The notes under the pieces were generated by a model. It did not search any database. It was given only the letters and a program-made list of their open reading frames with translations, and was not told where the DNA came from. DNA of 64,000 bases from Campylobacteraceae bacterium (GTDB lineage: Bacteria > Campylobacterota > Campylobacteria > Campylobacterales > Campylobacteraceae), in NCBI GenBank assembly GCA_031268335.1, contig JAIRXG010000006.1, positions 124,001-188,000 on the forward strand. Direction: 5' to 3'. Both the position numbers and the translations under genes were made by a program. Positions 9,147 through 64,000 of this stretch are shown here, one piece after another (within the stretch, counting starts at the first letter, position 1; each line of letters opens with the position of its first letter).

Positions 9147-10757
9147 ATGAATTATTTAAAAAGATTTATATTCTTCAATGTTAGTTTTGCCGTTTTATTC
9201 GTATTTTTTATAGTATTAATAGATTTTATATTAGAGTTTTTTATATCAGCCTATGATGTTAGTTTTGACCCTTTGTTTTTATTGATTTTATTTGCAGCAG
9301 GGCTATTTTTATCTTTTAACAAAAGTCAGATATTTTTTTATCTATTCATATTTTTTATATTTTCATTGCAATTAGTGCAAATTTCATCCATAGTGTATTT
9401 TGGATACTATATACAGCCATCTGAAATAGATAAAATATTTTTAGAATTTTCAGATATAAAAGATGCTGCATTAGCAGAGGCTGATTCTTTTTTATTAATT
9501 CCTATCTCATTAATTATTCCTTTGGCTATAATAATTGCTGCAAATTTTTTTCTCAAAAAAAATAGTTTGAAAATACCGTTTGCTTTTGTGCTTGTTTTGC
9601 TGCTTTTTATTCCTAAAATTGAGAGGGCAACGCGTAGAGATATACAATTTTTCTTTCCTTCTCCCGTTAGATACAGCTTTCACAATACAATAAATACATT
9701 TTCTTTCTATGCCGGAAAAGAGATATGGGTCAATAATAATTTTAAAATGCCGCAAAATTTTTATCTTCCTTACACCGTGGAAAAATATCAACCTAAAGCT
9801 CAAAATATTATTTTGGTTATAGGTGAAAGTGTCAATCCGAACCATCTTTCATTATTTGGCTATGACAGGTTAACAACGCCGTTTTTAAACATGTTAAAAG
9901 AAGACGATAGGTTTGATTATCAAGAGGCGGTATCTGGCGGCGTCTCTACTCATTCGAGTATGGCTTTTTTCCTAAATGGCGTAAGAGAGCCCGGAAATAC
10001 GCAAGAGATAAAATCAAAAACTTTTAATTTATTTAAGCTTGCCAAAGAGCAAGATTTTTCAACGTTTTTTATATCGGCACAAGATGCTAAAATAGCCTAT
10101 GAGATAGGAAATAAATATATTGATGAAATTGTAACTAAAGAAGAGGAGTTTCTTTTATTTAAAACAAAGAGGGATCAGGGGTTATTGGACGTATTGGATG
10201 AACTTGCATTAACGGATAAAAATTTTATCGTTATTCAAATGAGAACACCTCATGCACCATATGAAGATAATTATGACGAAGGTTCTGAATTTGATGTGTT
10301 TAAAGATAAAAGCAAAAGGATTGACACCTATGACAATTCGGTTTTGTATTTTGATTTTGTGTTGAAAAATATTTTTAATAACGTTGAAAAACTTATAAAA
10401 AATAACGGATATTTTATTTTTGTCTCCGATCATGGACAAGTATTTGGTGAAAATGGTTTTTACGGACACAACAAACTTGATATGAGCGTAGCCGCAGTTC
10501 CTTTTTTGTCATATAGCGTAAATGGCGATAAAATACCTTACAAGACACCTTCTCAATATGAAATAGCAGAGTGGATAGGAGAATTATTGGGGTATAAATT
10601 TATAAATCCGAATTTACAAAATAATACCTTCTATGTACATGGAAATAATTTTTTATCGAACTACGAATTTATTTCATACATTAAAATTAACGGCAATATT
10701 GCAAAGCAATCTAAAACAATATTAAATCAATTTATACAAAAATCAAAAGAGAAATAA
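9147..10757 (+). CDS. Phosphoethanolamine transferase-like membrane sulfatase-fold protein
   Basis: An inner-membrane protein of 536 aa. Four or five hydrophobic segments occupy about residues 8-160, followed by a periplasmic alkaline-phosphatase/sulfatase-fold domain. The domain shows VIGESVNPNHLSLFGYDR, which matches the family motif around the metal and nucleophile site, and FVSDHGQVFGENGFYGH, the metal-binding SDHG motif. Family members (EptA, EptC, CptA) transfer phosphoethanolamine to lipid A, LPS core or, in Campylobacter, the flagellar rod. Substrate cannot be named here; flagellar genes appear absent. The gene stands alone, with a weak ribosome-binding site. Confidence 0.8.
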   Translation: MNYLKRFIFFNVSFAVLFVFFIVLIDFILEFFISAYDVSFDPLFLLILFAAGLFLSFNKSQIFFYLFIFFIFSLQLVQISSIVYFGYYIQPSEIDKIFLEFSDIKDAALAEADSFLLIPISLIIPLAIIIAANFFLKKNSLKIPFAFVLVLLLFIPKIERATRRDIQFFFPSPVRYSFHNTINTFSFYAGKEIWVNNNFKMPQNFYLPYTVEKYQPKAQNIILVIGESVNPNHLSLFGYDRLTTPFLNMLKEDDRFDYQEAVSGGVSTHSSMAFFLNGVREPGNTQEIKSKTFNLFKLAKEQDFSTFFISAQDAKIAYEIGNKYIDEIVTKEEEFLLFKTKRDQGLLDVLDELALTDKNFIVIQMRTPHAPYEDNYDEGSEFDVFKDKSKRIDTYDNSVLYFDFVLKNIFNNVEKLIKNNGYFIFVSDHGQVFGENGFYGHNKLDMSVAAVPFLSYSVNGDKIPYKTPSQYEIAEWIGELLGYKFINPNLQNNTFYVHGNNFLSNYEFISYIKINGNIAKQSKTILNQFIQKSKEK

Positions 10758-10926: not shown

Positions 10927-11775
10927 ATGCAAAATCATATCAGCAGAAAAAATCCTACCGCATTTTTATTTGTAGTAGACCAGTCGGCATCTATGGGTTA
11001 CATTATGCCATCCATCGGTAAGCCTAAAGCAAAACATGTAGCAGACGTAATCAACAGGACTATTTTAAATCTTATAGATCTATGCAACAAAGCTGACGGC
11101 GTTAGAGATTATTTTCATGTGGGCGTTATATGCTATAGCGGTAAAGGTATTAGCAATGGTTTATTTAAAGATCCTCAAAAGCCTATTTTAAATCTGATAT
11201 CCGATGCGGCCGTAAATATTATAGGCGTAGAAACCGTAATAGATAAAATTGATAACGGTCTTGGAGAAATTATAGAAAGAAGAGCCGAATTTCCCATATG
11301 GGTAGAAGCCGAAGCAGATGGCGAAACGCCCATGTGCGAAGCATTTGCAAAAGCTAAAGGTGCGCTTGAAGAGTGGTGTAGTGAATATCAAGACAGCTGT
11401 CCTCCTACTTTGATACATGTAACGGATGGCGATTCTACGGATGGGAATCCCGAAGCTATTGCCGAAGAGATTAAAAATATTAGTACTTTGCATGGCAATA
11501 CTCTTTTGTTTAATATACATGTAAGCTCATTTAGTGCAAATATTATTAAATATCCTTACGATGATATGGAGATACAAGACGAATATGCAAAACAATTATT
11601 TAGAATGTCAAGCGTTTTTCCGCAATATTTAGTAGACAAGGCTTTGCAAAGAGGTTATAAAATCAATAACAGCTCTAAAGGTTTTGTATTTAACGCCGAT
11701 GCTGCCGAAATAATGAATTTTTTAGAGATCGGCACATTGCCCGCTACTCAAAGTTGGCAACAATTAGGTTCTTGA
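10927..11775 (+). CDS. TerY-like von Willebrand factor A domain protein
   Basis: A 282 aa cytoplasmic vWA protein. The metal-ion-dependent adhesion site is intact: DQSAS at residues 18-22, a threonine in DGETPM, and an aspartate in HVTDGDS. GGAG precedes the ATG. It is the first gene of a three-gene unit with a PP2C-like phosphatase (overlap of one base, TGATG) and a membrane kinase. This is the arrangement known as the TerY-P triad in tellurium-resistance-linked stress systems. No TerD-type gene is in the window. Its role is probably to scaffold or sense within the phosphorylation module; the signal is unknown. Confidence 0.8.
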   Translation: MQNHISRKNPTAFLFVVDQSASMGYIMPSIGKPKAKHVADVINRTILNLIDLCNKADGVRDYFHVGVICYSGKGISNGLFKDPQKPILNLISDAAVNIIGVETVIDKIDNGLGEIIERRAEFPIWVEAEADGETPMCEAFAKAKGALEEWCSEYQDSCPPTLIHVTDGDSTDGNPEAIAEEIKNISTLHGNTLLFNIHVSSFSANIIKYPYDDMEIQDEYAKQLFRMSSVFPQYLVDKALQRGYKINNSSKGFVFNADAAEIMNFLEIGTLPATQSWQQLGS

Positions 11776-12506
11776 TGGAACTTTTATTTAATGGTTCAAT
11801 TCCTAAAGATTATGCTTTTCCGAATGAAAACGAGGATTGGTTCAATATAAATTTCATAGAACACAATATCAGGATAGCTCTTAGCGATGGAGCGACAGTT
11901 TCTTATAATTCTCAAAAATGGGCTAAAATTTTAGTGGATTATTTTATTGAAACAGGAAACTTTTCCGCCGCGGATGTAAAAAAAGTCATTAGTATTTATT
12001 GTGCAAAAGGGTTCGATTTGAATAATATGACATTGATGCAAAAACGAGGATTTGCATTTGGGAGTTATGCTACGCTTTTGTGCGTGGAGTGTAACTCTTT
12101 CAATAACAATATACGAATTCTAGGCATAGGCGATACTATAGCGGTTTTATTAGATAAAGAGAGTTTTATAGAGGCTTTTCCATATATATCGTCAATGCAA
12201 TTTCTTAAAAATCCTCAAATGCTAAGCACCAACAAGCGAAGCAACTTTTTTTTTGTATACTCAAAAAATCGCTCCAAATTTTATAAAAGATGGGACTTGA
12301 ACTCTATAAAACATCCCGTACTTCTTTGTATGACCGATGCGCTTGGCGAATGGGCGCTAAAAGAGATGGAGAGTGGAAATTGTTTAGTGTGGGAAGAACT
12401 TTTATCCATAAGTAACATAAAAGATTTTAAAAGTTTTGTACAGACTAAACGGGACGACAATATGATGAAAATTGACGATACTACTTTAATCTCAATAATA
12501 TTTTAG
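11775..12506 (+). CDS. PP2C-family serine/threonine phosphatase-like protein
   Basis: This 243 aa protein fits the PP2C_2 type of metal-dependent phosphatase. The start at 11775 overlaps the vWA stop by one base; an in-frame upstream ATG at 11754 lies inside that gene. Key acidic motifs are NED (residues 19-21), SDGA (37-40), a middle GIGD, MTDA in place of TDG, and a terminal DDTTL. All the usual metal-binding aspartates therefore seem present. It probably dephosphorylates targets of the adjacent kinase, as in other vWA/PPM/kinase triads. Confidence 0.78.
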   Translation: MELLFNGSIPKDYAFPNENEDWFNINFIEHNIRIALSDGATVSYNSQKWAKILVDYFIETGNFSAADVKKVISIYCAKGFDLNNMTLMQKRGFAFGSYATLLCVECNSFNNNIRILGIGDTIAVLLDKESFIEAFPYISSMQFLKNPQMLSTNKRSNFFFVYSKNRSKFYKRWDLNSIKHPVLLCMTDALGEWALKEMESGNCLVWEELLSISNIKDFKSFVQTKRDDNMMKIDDTTLISIIF

Positions 12507-12514
12507 GTAGCAAT

Positions 12515-14572
12515 ATGATATATCCGAAATCAGAAGAATATAGGGCGGCTTTTCATCATGTAAAAGATACGCTCACTGACGAAATATTAAAAAATGGCAT
12601 TGTAAAGAGAAATATACTAGGACCGCAGGTATTAAGCGGAAATTTTGCTTATGCATATGAAGTTACATCACAATATAGAATAAAATACGCAGTACGCTGT
12701 TTTCGTTATGATTCCAAAGATCGTAAAGAGCGCTACAAAGCTATTTCAAATTATTTAAAAAAACTAAAATCACCCTATTTTGTAAATTTTGAGTATCAAG
12801 ACGAGGGTATCATAATAAACAATACAAAATTTCCAATTGTGAAAATGGCTTGGGCCGAAGGCGAGCTTTTGGGAGATTTTATAAAAAATAATTATGCAAA
12901 TAGATTTAAAATAAAAAACCTACTTCACTCCATAAGAAAACTTGCCAAATTTATAGAGAAAAGTAATTTTGCTCATGGGGATATACAGCCTAGCAACATT
13001 ATGGTATCAGACAATGGAAGAGTTCTTAAACTCATAGACTATGACGGCATGTATGTGGAAGAGTTGAAAAGCTTTGGAAATGCCGAATGCGGCGTGCCGA
13101 ATTTTCAACATCCCAAACGAAATGGTTTTTGGTCGAAAAAATTGGATAGATTTTCATTCATAGCGCTCTATACGGCATTGTTGGCTTTGATGGATAGGCA
13201 TTATTTGTGGGATGAGACGGATTCGGATGTAGAAACGATACTATTTAGAGCCGAAGATTATACAAATACAAAGAATTCAAAAATTTTCAAAAAATTGTAT
13301 GCTTTGAAATCCATGAAAAAATATGCCGAAAGTTTTGAAAATGTTTGCAACGGACGATTTAGGAATATACCTTCGTTGGATAGTTTTATAAAGGAGAATG
13401 CGACAAAAAGACATACCAGCATTATTGTGCCTATTGCAAGCATAGCCATTGTTTTTTTCATATCGATTTATGCTTATTATAATCAAGTTTCAAGAGTAGG
13501 AAGATCAAGCTCTTTATGGCAAGTTATAACAACTATTTTTTGGCATCAAAATACGGAAAGTGTAAGCATAGATTTATCGCAACCGCAAGATGCTTATTTG
13601 TATGATATTGGAGAGTATGAAATCGCCATCAAACATTTGAAAGCCGCATATGATTTATATTCTAATGACACAAATATCACATTATCGCTTATTATGCTTT
13701 ATGGTATGAGTGGATTTGATGACGATGCGCTTTTAAAATTGGCTTTACCTTTGAAAGAGATGAATATTGAAGATGAGCGGCTGTTTTTTTCATTAGCTGC
13801 TTTATATTGGCGCAGAGACGATTTGGGACAAGCTAAAATATTTATTGATGAATTAAAAGAAAATTTATCTAAAGATATCGGATTGCAAAAGCTTATCGGA
13901 TTGCTCGATGATATAGTGCAAAAAGAGAGCGAATCGTACGATTTATACTATAACGTCTTAAATTTGGAGGCAAGCGCTAAAACCAAATTTGCAACCTCAA
14001 TGGTGTTGTGGGACAGAATAAAATTATATAAAAATATGGAAGAGATGTATAAACAGAGTTTTATAGGTTTTTCTGCGGAGCATAGATTTAATATTGCTTT
14101 ATCATTTAGAGATTGGTTTGAGATATATTCAGGCTATAACACCGCTAAAAGCTTACAAAATCTTAATGATTTACATGAAAAATATCCTATAAATAATTAT
14201 TTGATTTATCAACTTGCGATAAATATCGCCTATCTACATGTGGATGGTTATAATGGAAATTGTGCTCCAAGCTCAAATATATATGCTTATGCCGCCGCTA
14301 TATTGAAAGACGAAGCCAATATTGTCAGCGCAAATCAAGCGTTAAGTTATGCAAGCAGACTATTGGAAACGAGCTTTTCCAAAGCATATGGATATTATGC
14401 GTTAGGATTTGCATATTATGCCAATAATGAATTTGAAAATGCGCAAAAAGCCCTCGTAAATTCTAAAAATTATGCGCAAAAAAATTTAGGCAGCAATATA
14501 GATAGCCTTTTGAGTAAGGTAACGAACAGCCTAACATGTGAGATTGTAATAACCGATTTTCAAAAATTTTAA
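12515..14572 (+). CDS. Membrane protein kinase-like protein with C-terminal TPR region
   Basis: A 685 aa protein with an N-terminal kinase-like domain (about residues 35-285), one transmembrane helix (302-322) and a long helical, TPR-like region (about 355-670). Kinase hallmarks are altered: the VAIK lysine is Arg61 in YAVRCF, HRD is HGD (154-156, HGDIQPSNIM), and DFG is DYD (175-177). Asp156, Asn161 and Asp175 are kept. HGD and DYDG are typical of kinases in vWA/PP2C triads. It follows the phosphatase by 8 bases. The TPR part would face the periplasm if the kinase is cytoplasmic. It overlaps the convergent CAP gene by 4 bases. Confidence 0.75.
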   Translation: MIYPKSEEYRAAFHHVKDTLTDEILKNGIVKRNILGPQVLSGNFAYAYEVTSQYRIKYAVRCFRYDSKDRKERYKAISNYLKKLKSPYFVNFEYQDEGIIINNTKFPIVKMAWAEGELLGDFIKNNYANRFKIKNLLHSIRKLAKFIEKSNFAHGDIQPSNIMVSDNGRVLKLIDYDGMYVEELKSFGNAECGVPNFQHPKRNGFWSKKLDRFSFIALYTALLALMDRHYLWDETDSDVETILFRAEDYTNTKNSKIFKKLYALKSMKKYAESFENVCNGRFRNIPSLDSFIKENATKRHTSIIVPIASIAIVFFISIYAYYNQVSRVGRSSSLWQVITTIFWHQNTESVSIDLSQPQDAYLYDIGEYEIAIKHLKAAYDLYSNDTNITLSLIMLYGMSGFDDDALLKLALPLKEMNIEDERLFFSLAALYWRRDDLGQAKIFIDELKENLSKDIGLQKLIGLLDDIVQKESESYDLYYNVLNLEASAKTKFATSMVLWDRIKLYKNMEEMYKQSFIGFSAEHRFNIALSFRDWFEIYSGYNTAKSLQNLNDLHEKYPINNYLIYQLAINIAYLHVDGYNGNCAPSSNIYAYAAAILKDEANIVSANQALSYASRLLETSFSKAYGYYALGFAYYANNEFENAQKALVNSKNYAQKNLGSNIDSLLSKVTNSLTCEIVITDFQKF

Positions 14573-59684: not shown

Positions 59685-60374
59685 TCAATCATCAAATTCT
59701 TTTAGCTTTACACGAAGTTCAGCGTTATTTTTTCCCCTGTGCATAATTTGAAAATGTTCAGGATATTTTTTCAAAATATCCCCCCAACTATTTCCACCAT
59801 AGTTTTTTGAAATGTAATTTGGATTTTTATTTTTTAAATATGTTCCAATTCGCGCAACATAAGCAAATCCATCATCTTTTTTTATGGATACAATAGCATC
59901 TTTTAAAGTTCCAATCAAAAACTTTTCGTCATAATCATCGCTCTCTTTTTTGATTGGCAGTTCAATAAACACAGAACAAGCGTTTCTAAAAGATATATTT
60001 GTCTTTTTTTCACCAAAACCTATCATTTTAATCCCTCTGGATGTTACGGTTTGAGCTATGCTTGTGAAATCGCTGTCGCTTGAAACAATAGCTATAGCAT
60101 CAACGATTTTCTCTTCGCATATTGCTTTCATAACGTCAATCGCTATTTCCATATCGGAAGCATTTTTACTGTTCGTATTTTGCTGGACATGAACGGCTTT
60201 AATACCAAAATCATTCAGTTTATCATGATATTTATTCTGTTTGCTCCAATTAGCATACGCTCTTTTTGATATTACTTTGCCATGAGAGGGTAATTCATTA
60301 AATATATCGTCCAAGTAGTCGCAACTTATATTTTCACAGTCAATAAAGAGAGCTATTTTGTTATCAGTACTCAT
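59685..60374 (-). CDS. NYN-domain (LabA/DUF88-like) RNase with C-terminal OST-HTH/LOTUS domain
   Basis: A 229 aa protein. The N-terminal NYN (PIN-like) nuclease domain has Asp12 and Asn15 (FIDCENIS), Asp74 and Asp80 (NASDMEIAID) and Asp100/Asp102 (SSDSDF), the acidic pattern of a metal-dependent nuclease. The C-terminal 75 residues fit OST-HTH/LOTUS, an RNA-binding fold (ARIGTYLKNKNPNYISKNYG). Its start overlaps the FGE-like gene as ATGA, so the two are made together. The role is unknown; RNA cleavage, perhaps in stress or defence, is an inference. Confidence 0.82.
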   Translation of the reverse strand: MSTDNKIALFIDCENISCDYLDDIFNELPSHGKVISKRAYANWSKQNKYHDKLNDFGIKAVHVQQNTNSKNASDMEIAIDVMKAICEEKIVDAIAIVSSDSDFTSIAQTVTSRGIKMIGFGEKKTNISFRNACSVFIELPIKKESDDYDEKFLIGTLKDAIVSIKKDDGFAYVARIGTYLKNKNPNYISKNYGGNSWGDILKKYPEHFQIMHRGKNNAELRVKLKEFDD

Positions 60375-62377
60375 TTTGCACCTCCTTCATAACAAACGCG
60401 AAAGCAAGTTTCATATCTTGCTACATTATCAAATGCGAAAAGTTCGTCTATGCTTGGGTTATATAAAAAGCAAGTTTTCTCGTCTTCAACAGTTTTTTGA
60501 GAATAATTATATGGTGGATATAGATCAGCAAATCCATTACTAATATAGAAGGATTGGTCTCTTATAAGTTCATTTCCAAATAGCCACTCGCGAAATAGAA
60601 CTTTGTTTGCATAAAATATAAGACCGTCTTTTTCTATATATTTTAAAGGTTTTCTATAAAGCATTAAGACTTTAGTTACATCATCTAAAGCAACCTCTTT
60701 CTTATCAATAAATATCGTCTTATCATCAAACGGATCATTTTTTGAAGTAGGAATTGTACCTCCTTTTGTATTGATAAAAATTGTACCATCAGTTATAATA
60801 AGGCTCATAAGATTGTCGTTATATTCACTTTCATCTGTTTTGGGACAAAGCTGTCTAAACTCCTCCGCTGTTAATAATCTTGCCTTGATTTTGTATTTTT
60901 CCTCCATCCAATTGCAGTAAGCTATTGCATCATATTGCGTAACAGTTATCGGTATATCTTTTTCATATTCAACAAGTTCAACCTCTTTTAAGTCTAAAAA
61001 TTCATTTTTTATATAATCGTCCAATAACTCCTGTATGTTGATTTTGTTTTCCTCTTTAATCGCTTGTAGCTGCAAAGATCTGTTTTTTGCATAATATTTT
61101 AAGAACCCTTCTAATGTAATGCGAGCAGTTTTGATCTTTGGCAATTTTTTACATCTATCTTCTGCATACCTCGTCTCTTCACAAAATTTTAAAAACTCTT
61201 CTATTGTAATGCAGTTTGAAACAAAAAGATTTTTGTCTTCAACCGTTACTCTGTTAAATCCGTCAATCTCTTTTTGTTCGAGTTTTTTCTTGTTGTATTT
61301 ATATGGTGGTCTATATAAGTCTTTTTTGATGTAATAGTTTTTGAGTATCTCATTTTCTGGTAAGCTATAAAGCTGATTATTAGCACAAAACTCAATTTTA
61401 GCTTCATGCAGATCTTTTTCAAACCATAAGCTAACCTGCTTTGCAGTTTTTACATCTCCTTTAAAGCCAAAATATTGCCATCTTTTAAAATCATAATCTT
61501 CATTAAAAACCGACGAAACATATTTGTGTTTTAAATATTTATATAGAGGGTCGTGCTTTTCTGTCCTTAAATTTTTAAAAATAAAATCATATTTACCGTC
61601 CGCCGCTTTTAAAAAAATCAGATGCTCTGAAAAAGGTATCACCTCTATCCAGCCCTTTTCTGCCTTTAAAAGTATATCATGAATATATTGCGCGATTTTT
61701 ACATACTCTTTTTGTTCAACTAAACCTTTATAATCTTGATAGCATTGGTAGATATATTTATTTTGAGTGTTGTCCCCATTTTTTATAAACAGATCGCTTA
61801 TAAGATTTTTGTAAGGTGTTAGTATATGGTTATATACAGGTATTGTAAAATCGGCTTTTTTCCATGAATGCAACAATCTTTCATATTCTTCGGTTTCCAT
61901 AAATTTTTTCATAGTATTAAAGCATTCAATTTGATTGTCATGTGGTGGATACAATTTTAACTGCGAAGAAAACCAATCAGAAGCATCAAGCATTTTGCAG
62001 CCATATCCTGTAAAAATTGCTTTCGGTAGCGGTCTGCCTGATAAAAACAGTCTATCGCTTATTTGACGTGTAGTGAAGTCTATCATTGGTGAAGATAAAA
62101 TATTTTTTTCGTCATCAACATAGTTAGTTAATCCATTTTTTTCTAAAAACGGAACTATCTCTTCAGAGTAAGCCTTGAGATAATCATTCCAAGCTTTATA
62201 GTCTAAAACTTTTGCAACAGAATTTAGATAAGTGCTTATAGTGAACTTATCATCTTTTTCTTTGGTTAAAATAGATTTATCAAAATTTTTGATAATTTTT
62301 TGGCCCAAGCTATTTAGCGGACAACTGCGAGAGTGAAACTTAGCATTTGGCTGTGTGGGGAAGTATTTTGTTGACAT
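60371..62377 (-). CDS. Formylglycine-generating-enzyme (SUMF1)-like protein with long N-terminal region
   Basis: A 668 aa protein. Residues 1-370 match no family I recognise and carry many aromatic and charged residues. The C-terminal 290 residues resemble the FGE-sulfatase/SUMF1 fold: CITIEEFLKFCEET (about 389-402), PITVTQYDAIAYCNWMEE (476-493), ARLLTAEEFRQLCP (499-512) and a terminal CFRVCYEGG. The usual RGGSW-type active-site region is not evident, so it may bind peptide or ligand rather than oxidise a cysteine. It is coupled to the NYN gene downstream. ATCTCC-type Shine-Dalgarno complement (TAGGAGAT) lies before the ATG. Confidence 0.68.
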   Translation of the reverse strand: MSTKYFPTQPNAKFHSRSCPLNSLGQKIIKNFDKSILTKEKDDKFTISTYLNSVAKVLDYKAWNDYLKAYSEEIVPFLEKNGLTNYVDDEKNILSSPMIDFTTRQISDRLFLSGRPLPKAIFTGYGCKMLDASDWFSSQLKLYPPHDNQIECFNTMKKFMETEEYERLLHSWKKADFTIPVYNHILTPYKNLISDLFIKNGDNTQNKYIYQCYQDYKGLVEQKEYVKIAQYIHDILLKAEKGWIEVIPFSEHLIFLKAADGKYDFIFKNLRTEKHDPLYKYLKHKYVSSVFNEDYDFKRWQYFGFKGDVKTAKQVSLWFEKDLHEAKIEFCANNQLYSLPENEILKNYYIKKDLYRPPYKYNKKKLEQKEIDGFNRVTVEDKNLFVSNCITIEEFLKFCEETRYAEDRCKKLPKIKTARITLEGFLKYYAKNRSLQLQAIKEENKINIQELLDDYIKNEFLDLKEVELVEYEKDIPITVTQYDAIAYCNWMEEKYKIKARLLTAEEFRQLCPKTDESEYNDNLMSLIITDGTIFINTKGGTIPTSKNDPFDDKTIFIDKKEVALDDVTKVLMLYRKPLKYIEKDGLIFYANKVLFREWLFGNELIRDQSFYISNGFADLYPPYNYSQKTVEDEKTCFLYNPSIDELFAFDNVARYETCFRVCYEGGAK

Positions 62378-62826
62378 ACTTATCTCCTAATTTTTTTAAG
62401 CGCATGTTGAAACTTTATAGAAATAAAGAAAAAGAAGATAAGTTCTCCACAATAAACGCGAATTTATCGTAGAAAGCAGTTGCAATGACACTACATGCAG
62501 TGTCAAAGACTGTCGCTTATGATTGAAATCATAGTAAAAAAAATATTAAAAATTGCTTAGCAAAAACTTTGTGATATACTATTTTTTATCGGCAAAAACA
62601 AGACAAAACGTGTAGTATTTAAAATAGATGAAATTGATAGTTTTTGGATAAATAATTAATCCTGTTTTATTATCGTGAGCATAAACATAACAATCTATAA
62701 AAATAGTAAACGAAAGAGATGACAGAACAAAAGATTTTTAAGCTTGAAACATAAAAGTTCTAAAGTAAGATAGTATCTTTTTTGGTAATTTTAAACAGCT
62801 TTTTGGCATAATTTACATTTGTATTT
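62378..62826. other. 450-base gap with inverted repeats before tRNA-Arg
   Basis: Two hairpins stand out: TGACACT/AGTGTCA around ACATGC (62486-62505), and TATGATT/AATCATA (62518-62533) followed by an A-run. The tRNA promoter CATAAT is at 62807-62812. No coding frame is convincing. Confidence 0.5.
62486..62533. repeat. Two adjacent hairpins upstream of the FGE-like gene
   Basis: The first is a near-palindrome of 20 bases (62486-62505). The second has a 7-bp stem with a 2-base loop (62518-62533). They lie 110-160 bases upstream of the divergent FGE-like start and could be operator or transcript-end structures. Confidence 0.4.
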
Positions 62827-62903
62827 GTCCCGATAGCTCAGCTGGATAGAGCGTCAGATTCCTAATCTGAAGGTCACGCGTTCGAATCGCGTTCGGGATA
62901 CCA
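62827..62903 (+). tRNA. tRNA-Arg (CCT)
   Basis: A 77-base cloverleaf with anticodon CCT in GATTCCTAATC, T arm GCGTTCGAATCGC and encoded CCA. The first acceptor pair is G-T. It sits between the two NYN/FGE cassettes, and tRNA genes are common integration sites. Confidence 0.93.
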
Positions 62904-62937: not shown

Positions 62938-63242
62938 TTAGCTTCTCTTTTTTATGAATTGTGCAATCAATTTTTTTATCCAGTTTCTTTGAGTGTTATG
63001 CAAAATGTGCCGTTTTTGGCTTATTTGTATGAAATTTAAAAATATTTGAGGTATCTTTTTGGCAATATCTTCCCAACCATTTCTACCGTAATTTTTCGAT
63101 ATGAAGCCAATACTTTGATTTTTCAAATACGTTCCAAGTCGACGCATATTTGTTTTATTATAAGGGGATAGTGTAGTACGTTGTCTAAGTGTTCACGGTT
63201 TATATTTTAGCAATCAATAAATACTATTTTATTGTCAATATT
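62938..63242 (-). pseudogene. Broken second copy of the NYN/LOTUS gene
   Basis: Just after the second FGE-like stop the minus strand reads DNKIVFIDC, then a stop codon, then NINREHLDN, matching DNKIALFIDCENISCDYLDD of the intact copy. Most of the nuclease domain is then missing, and the frame resumes with RRLGTYLKNQS and FISKNYGRNGW, matching the LOTUS part. So the gene has a nonsense change and a large internal deletion. It cannot make an active NYN nuclease. Confidence 0.8.
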
Positions 63243-64000
63243 CGTTTACGCCTTCTTCATAACAAACGCGAAAACATGTTTTGATATGTTTATATTTGTT
63301 ATTTGAGTCCGGTGCAAAAAAGTACATATATAGTGTGGAATTATCCATTTTTTCATATTGATATAGCGCCGATAGAGTTATACCTTTCTCAGATGACCAC
63401 TCCAAAAAAGTTTCATTTATACAAAACTTGAGAGCGTTTTTTTCTATGTATTGCAAAGGCTTTCTCCATTGCATTATAATTTTATTATCAAGATGAAATT
63501 CTTTACTATCCATGATAAATATTAACTCCGATTCAAAAGAATATTTGTAATCATAAAGCGATACGGTGTTGTCAATTTTAGTATCGTAATTGCATCTGTT
63601 GCATAATGGGTCTGTAATGCTTTTGTTACTATTTGTTTTTGGGCAAAGCCTATAAAATTCTTCTTTTGCCAATAGCCTCGCATTGACTTTATGCAAATCT
63701 TCCATCCATTTGCAGTAAGCTATCGCGTCATACCATGTAACACTTACCGGCATATCTTTTTCTTCGTAATTAACAGTCTCAATTTCTTGCAATTTTTTAG
63801 ATCTATCGTTTTTATAATTTGTCTCCTCGCAAAATCTTGAGAACTCTTCTATTGTAATACAATTTGAAACATAAAGAGTTTTATTGTCGATTTCTACTTT
63901 GTTAAAACTATCAATTTTTTTCGGTTTGATTTTTTGTTTATTGTATGGTTTATATAAACCTTTTTTGATGTAATAATTTTTCATTATCTCATGTGTTGAC
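63235..64000 (-). CDS. Second FGE/SUMF1-like protein (5' part outside window)
   Basis: The frame is open to the right edge (upstream residues read STHEIM before the first in-window methionine), so the gene begins beyond base 64000. The visible 255 residues align with the C-terminal half of the first copy: YYIKKGLYKP, CITIEEFSRFCEETNY, SVTWYDAIAYCKWME, ARLLAKEEFYRLCP and CFRVCYEEG. It lacks about 54 residues found in copy 1 after the KKL segment. The stop lies directly before the broken NYN copy, the same order as in the intact cassette. Confidence 0.7.
   Translation of the reverse strand, partial: STHEIMKNYYIKKGLYKPYNKQKIKPKKIDSFNKVEIDNKTLYVSNCITIEEFSRFCEETNYKNDRSKKLQEIETVNYEEKDMPVSVTWYDAIAYCKWMEDLHKVNARLLAKEEFYRLCPKTNSNKSITDPLCNRCNYDTKIDNTVSLYDYKYSFESELIFIMDSKEFHLDNKIIMQWRKPLQYIEKNALKFCINETFLEWSSEKGITLSALYQYEKMDNSTLYMYFFAPDSNNKYKHIKTCFRVCYEEGVNEY

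Follow-up and report, generated by a model that had tools for sequence, protein, structure and literature searches.

A mobile cassette of overlapping FGE-like and NYN-LOTUS genes in Campylobacterales, a candidate conflict module

An FGE-like gene and a NYN-LOTUS nuclease gene that overlap in the genome of a Campylobacteraceae bacterium (G000; GCA_031268335.1, contig JAIRXG010000006.1; 31 contigs totalling 1.65 Mb, completeness 85%) form a mobile, island-borne two-gene cassette that moves as a unit. The window, which is the whole stretch of 64,000 nucleotides analysed here, contains the intact pair and part of a second copy. With moderate confidence, the pair is interpreted as a mobile two-gene conflict module, probably anti-phage, with a lectin-fold sensor governing a NYN/LOTUS RNase.

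Organization of the gene pair

The two genes have positions 60371-60374 (ATGA) in common on the minus strand, the 4-base overlap that an earlier note on this DNA had described, and both open reading frames have exactly the bounds given in Table 1. Translation of the FGE-like and NYN genes is expected to be coupled at this junction. A promoter scan yielded nothing above chance, and Rfam matched only the tRNA. The stem-loop that follows the NYN gene is a possible terminator; one site of this type was found where 2.0 would be expected by chance.

Table 1. Features of the pair, its second copy and the adjoining DNA, in window positions
Feature	Position	Strand	Description
Stem-loop	59608..59632	-	Perfect 11-bp stem and 3-nt loop, 3' of the NYN stop and before fusA; T-run weak
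NYN-LOTUS gene	59685..60374	-	229 aa; NYN nuclease domain 6-139, LOTUS/OST-HTH 157-216
Gene junction	60371..60390	-	Strong Shine-Dalgarno AAGGAGGTG within the last codons of the FGE-like gene, then ATGA overlap
FGE-like gene (P0002)	60371..62377	-	668 aa; N-terminal ~370 aa of no recognised type; FGE/C-type-lectin-like domain ~372-668
FGE-like gene start region	62378..62395	-	AGGAG ~8 bases 5' of ATG
tRNA-Arg (CCT)	62827..62903	+	Between the two copies
Second NYN gene debris	63033..63243	-	First ~16 codons 63200-63243 and LOTUS end 63033-63146
Second FGE-like gene	63235..64000	-	Runs past window end; intact beyond (L006 4236-6023, GTG start)

The NYN-LOTUS protein

The NYN nuclease joined to a LOTUS domain that the earlier note had recognised stands, as both domains exceed their Pfam cut-offs: NYN (PF01936) with E=1.3e-31 and OST-HTH/LOTUS (PF12872) with 8.5e-6 and 26.0 bits against a cut-off of 23.8. 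Five residues of the NYN active site (D12, N15, D74, D100 and D102) do not vary among eight aligned relatives. The nearest PDB sequences are the solved LOTUS pieces 2kzv and 2kpm and the NYN-fold 2qip. PADLOC 2.0 produced only weak matches to this protein, NYN (0.0027) and HEC-09 (0.0046). NYN domains can be real endoribonucleases (PMC6294520), and the NYN-LOTUS protein is proposed to be an RNase effector. The paper that defined the bacterial NYN-LOTUS proteins (DUF88, LK-nuclease) saw no conserved association with other known RNA-processing systems, suggested that they are standalone enzymes, and assigned them neither RNA targets nor a biological role (Anantharaman et al. 2010, PMC2848206). 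The protein encoded here resembles these in domain order, size and acidic site, but belongs to an accessory subclade with a conserved overlapping partner gene.

The FGE-like protein

Assignment of a SUMF1-like domain to the partner is upheld, although marginally in Pfam for the first copy: the FGE match (PF03781) of P0002 reaches 22.7 bits against a cut-off of 23.3 and spans approximately the first half of the fold, whereas the second copy scores 27-29 bits, and a profile of four relatives matched the FGE domain of the solved EgtB-IV (8vig) with E=1.9e-6. The N-terminal ~370 residues, which had been noted as a region of unknown type, keep that description, with zero matches in Pfam, PADLOC, NCBIfam, PHROGs and PDB sequences. 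AlphaFold runs on 2 and on 4 sequences reached a mean pLDDT of 31 and 40, respectively, and yielded no usable structure; the fold search returned nothing significant, EgtB-IV being the top match at E=0.17. P0002 also contains an extra segment of ~50 residues (~412-462; window 61000-61150) that is absent from the other three relatives; it looks as if the 'ITIEEFLKFCEETRY' stretch just before it had been partly duplicated in tandem (blastp 6e-4).

EgtB-IV and OvoA are the best fold relatives of the FGE-like protein, as would be expected of an FGE- or EgtB/OvoA-like enzyme with the NYN protein or a small molecule as its target of modification. This function is highly improbable. The GNVWEW...GGSW region, which is the seat of FGE catalysis and includes the catalytic cysteines, is absent or replaced in a direct alignment with the FGE-family protein L114. 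EgtB and OvoA require an N-terminal DinB domain with iron-binding histidines, and domain searches found no DinB match in any of the four FGE-like proteins; although the FGE-like domain is closer in sequence to these sulfoxide synthases than to other proteins, the alignment covers only part of the FGE domain. Because the FGE catalytic motifs are missing, binding is favoured over catalysis, and the domain is most plausibly a C-type-lectin-like fold that serves for binding.

FGS/FGE domains of C-type lectin fold in conflict systems and in DGR targets have been proposed to be invader-binding sensors that recruit effectors (PMC8195603, PMC7159879, PMC10907252). The FGE-like protein is comparable in its non-catalytic-looking C-terminal FGE fold located behind another domain, and its proposed role is that of a sensor/regulator. 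A DGR-diversified FGS target was considered and rejected for three genomes, there being no reverse transcriptase (RVT_1) in G000, at its 85% completeness, or in G527 or G575. In genome G550, three reverse transcriptases exceed the Pfam cut-off (contigs C7, C129 and C263; L128-L130), none of them on the contig of the pair.

Distribution and mobility

The pair is conserved beyond the window genome; the earlier note had named confinement to this genome as a finding that would refute its proposal, and the pair is not so confined. Three more genomes (G527, G575 and G550), all of another family of the same order, carry an overlapping FGE-like/NYN pair on the same strand with the FGE-like gene first, so that the pair recurs in at least four genera; the overlaps are 4, 4, 4 and 11 bases in G000, G527, G575 and G550, respectively. 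The full-length relative in G527 was found by a two-row profile over a phylum sample; a three-row profile over the family of G527 then detected the relative in G575 and, in G550, the end of a further one. LOTUS is recognised in the partner proteins of G527 and G575; in that of G550, NYN alone passes. The other 152 genomes of the window genome's own family (153 searched including it, with its own genus covered) encode no FGE-like protein, and the pair is rare in the order and phylum samples. This patchy distribution is the pattern of lateral gain.

Among further matches in the order and phylum at E values of 1e-7 to 1e-2, those that were read are OvoA-like proteins of ~700 aa or an unrelated FGE-family protein, and most of the remainder have frames of ~700 aa. 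Scans of GTDB contigs with each protein, and scans of IMG/VR, gave zero matches; such scans depend on exact short peptides and so miss distant relatives. A tblastn search for the FGE-like protein over plasmids and phages also gave zero matches. Plasmids carry many NYN homologues, and the seven plasmid NYN neighbourhoods inspected, in gene tables that are incomplete, had no annotated FGE-like gene.

DNA homology between G527 and G575 comprises the pair together with ~175 bp before it and ~45 bp after it, and the flanks beyond are unrelated. Since homology stops at the cassette edges, the cassette moved and the flanks did not. In G575 two tyrosine integrases precede the pair by 1.2 kb, and the DNA stretch opens with a type I restriction specificity gene; in G550 a third tyrosine integrase is located 42 bp after the NYN gene. 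In G527 the pair is 3.2 kb from a complete Lamassu LmuABC operon (LmuB 4e-202, LmuA 8e-79, LmuC 2e-31), beyond which there is a PDC-M62A/B candidate (Septu-like ATPase plus HNH). The window locus of the pair lies between housekeeping genes. The earlier note had proposed a check for enrichment near defence genes: one of the four loci directly adjoins defence systems and one more is near a type I restriction-modification subunit, which does not amount to a statistical enrichment.

These surroundings bear on whether the pair might be an accessory RNA-regulation or stress module outside conflict, with the FGE-like protein acting as an adaptor through which RNAs or a metabolite signal reach a housekeeping-type RNase. 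The wide occurrence of NYN-LOTUS proteins, and the proposal that they degrade RNA as standalone enzymes (PMC2848206), accord with such a module, but patchiness, cassette mobility, and integrase and Lamassu neighbours are unusual for housekeeping RNA decay, and this explanation is unlikely.

The second copy and the insertion site

Immediately beyond the tRNA-Arg gene, a second FGE-like gene, which the earlier note had missed, encodes a protein with 58% identity to the first. Its NYN gene has lost ~470 bp of NYN sequence, with ~50 bp in its place. An intact FGE-like gene accompanied by NYN debris implies that the duplication was of the whole pair and that the nuclease was lost later. The first and second FGE-like proteins of the window differ most at residues 121-200 and 516-668, the latter being the C-terminal half of the FGE domain. 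The window genome may possess two diverged receptors, the second without a nuclease of its own, that share one RNase (two sensors, one effector).

The window pair sits between fusA and tRNA-Arg. In other genomes of the genus, the spacing of these genes is 78 bp (L124) or ~465 bp (L125), and the region between them has no FGE-like or NYN genes; the distance of only 78 bp in the congener L124 identifies fusA-tRNA-Arg as the interrupted site. The GC content of the pair is 31%, compared with 36% for the window and 41% for fusA. The repeat families found on the island stem mainly from the duplicated copies, and no att-like repeat was recognised.

Elsewhere in the window, three consecutive plus-strand genes (10927-14572) resemble the TerY-phosphatase-kinase triad of conflict/tellurite clusters. 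By eye, the first two products (282 aa and 250 aa, with no Pfam match at 0.001) look like a von Willebrand-type protein and a PP2C-like phosphatase, respectively; the third is a protein kinase (685 aa, PF00069). A plus-strand gene at 9147-10757 encodes a sulfatase-superfamily membrane protein (PF00884), EptA-like by eye. Its GC content of 0.29 is the lowest among the 42 larger open reading frames compared, and it is possibly acquired.

Evolution of the two genes

In a maximum-likelihood tree, the paired NYN proteins fall in one accessory subclade (support 100/98), which is separate from the family's remaining NYN-LOTUS proteins. The subclade also holds orphan NYN-LOTUS proteins of the near-identical genomes G018 and G053 (L007 and L008) and of G123 (L010), a genome that stands apart; pairing is patchy within it, and its branches are long. 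No FGE-like remnant was present in the surrounding DNA examined near the orphans of G018, G053 and G123, which represent either losses of the partner or the state before pairing.

Comparison of G527 with G575 gives dN/dS of 0.17 for the NYN gene (strong purifying selection) and 0.43 for the FGE-like gene (weaker), with no region of the pair exceeding 1. In the segment of the FGE-like gene that encodes residues ~56-240 (window numbering), dS is 0.5-0.95, versus 0.1-0.2 elsewhere in the gene, which is the mark of a recombined (swapped) segment. Since no ratio exceeds 1, an arms race is no more than suggested.

Chance adjacency, or DNA decaying in one genome, might explain why the second copy is half decayed and why the pair is missing from its own genus and family; with order, strand and overlap recurring in three more genera and both genes under purifying selection, the probability of this explanation is negligible. 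A toxin-antitoxin-like pair, in which the NYN-LOTUS RNase is toxic alone and is inhibited by the FGE-like protein, would maintain itself on mobile elements, with any effect on phage being secondary. The overlap of the genes with the neutraliser first would suit this arrangement, and the second copy keeps its FGE-like gene without NYN, as expected of an inhibitor that is harmless or useful alone. However, NYN-LOTUS proteins without partners are common in related genomes, and occur also in the same subclade, so the NYN protein is probably no constitutive toxin; moreover, at ~600-668 aa the partner far exceeds typical type II antitoxins, which are much smaller. On this evidence a toxin-antitoxin function is rather unlikely.

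Proposed function

Gene structure, conservation, mobility and the catalytic residues are directly shown, and RNase activity, complex formation, sensing and defence are inferred for the conflict module that is favoured here. In the proposed mechanism, the FGE-like and NYN-LOTUS proteins would act together: the FGE-like protein, dead as an FGE, would recognise a ligand of an invader or of stress by its fast-diverging middle segment, its lectin-fold C-terminus or both, and would hold or switch on the NYN-LOTUS protein, of which the LOTUS domain would hold RNA while the NYN domain cuts it at a metal-dependent acidic site. The predicted outcome is growth arrest or destruction of phage transcripts. 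The points that weigh against a conflict module are that there are only four pair loci, one of which is directly beside known defence systems and another, that of the window, between housekeeping genes; that no dN/dS value exceeds 1; that orphan NYN proteins of the subclade occur in three genomes without a nearby FGE-like gene; and that PADLOC 2.0 (2023) has no model that matches the FGE-like protein. The RNA-targeting stress or defence module with an FGE-like sensor that the earlier note had put forward therefore survives as an idea, with a conserved, island-borne cassette and absent FGE motifs in its favour, and is qualified by the single locus in four that lies directly at defence systems. 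A more specific version, which is possible and held only tentatively, is an NTPase-free immune module in which the lectin-fold receptor directly gates the NYN/LOTUS RNase, with two sensors and one effector in the window genome.

Relation to known systems and significance

FGS sensors and nuclease effectors are each already known in conflict systems. The pair differs from FGS/FGE conflict systems and DGR targets in that it has no NTPase, vWA, EAD or reverse transcriptase, and in that its FGE-like member shares a two-gene operon with a NYN-LOTUS RNase; no NTPase (STAND, MoxR) was found in the same protein or operon, the cassette consisting of the two genes only. NYN is absent from PMC7159879 and PMC10907252, and where PMC8195603 mentions it, the context is metazoan TRADD-N proteins or the reference list. 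The Lamassu and Septu-like neighbours in G527 have an analogous logic of sensor plus nuclease/effector, but they have no sequence relation to the pair, which has no ATPase. The earlier note knew of no described system with this pair, and none was found in searches of the open-access literature. The conserved, mobile, overlapping lectin-fold partner provides a handle on how at least one NYN-LOTUS subclade may be controlled. Should it protect against phage, the pair would be an immune system pared down to a receptor plus an RNase, with no NTPase.
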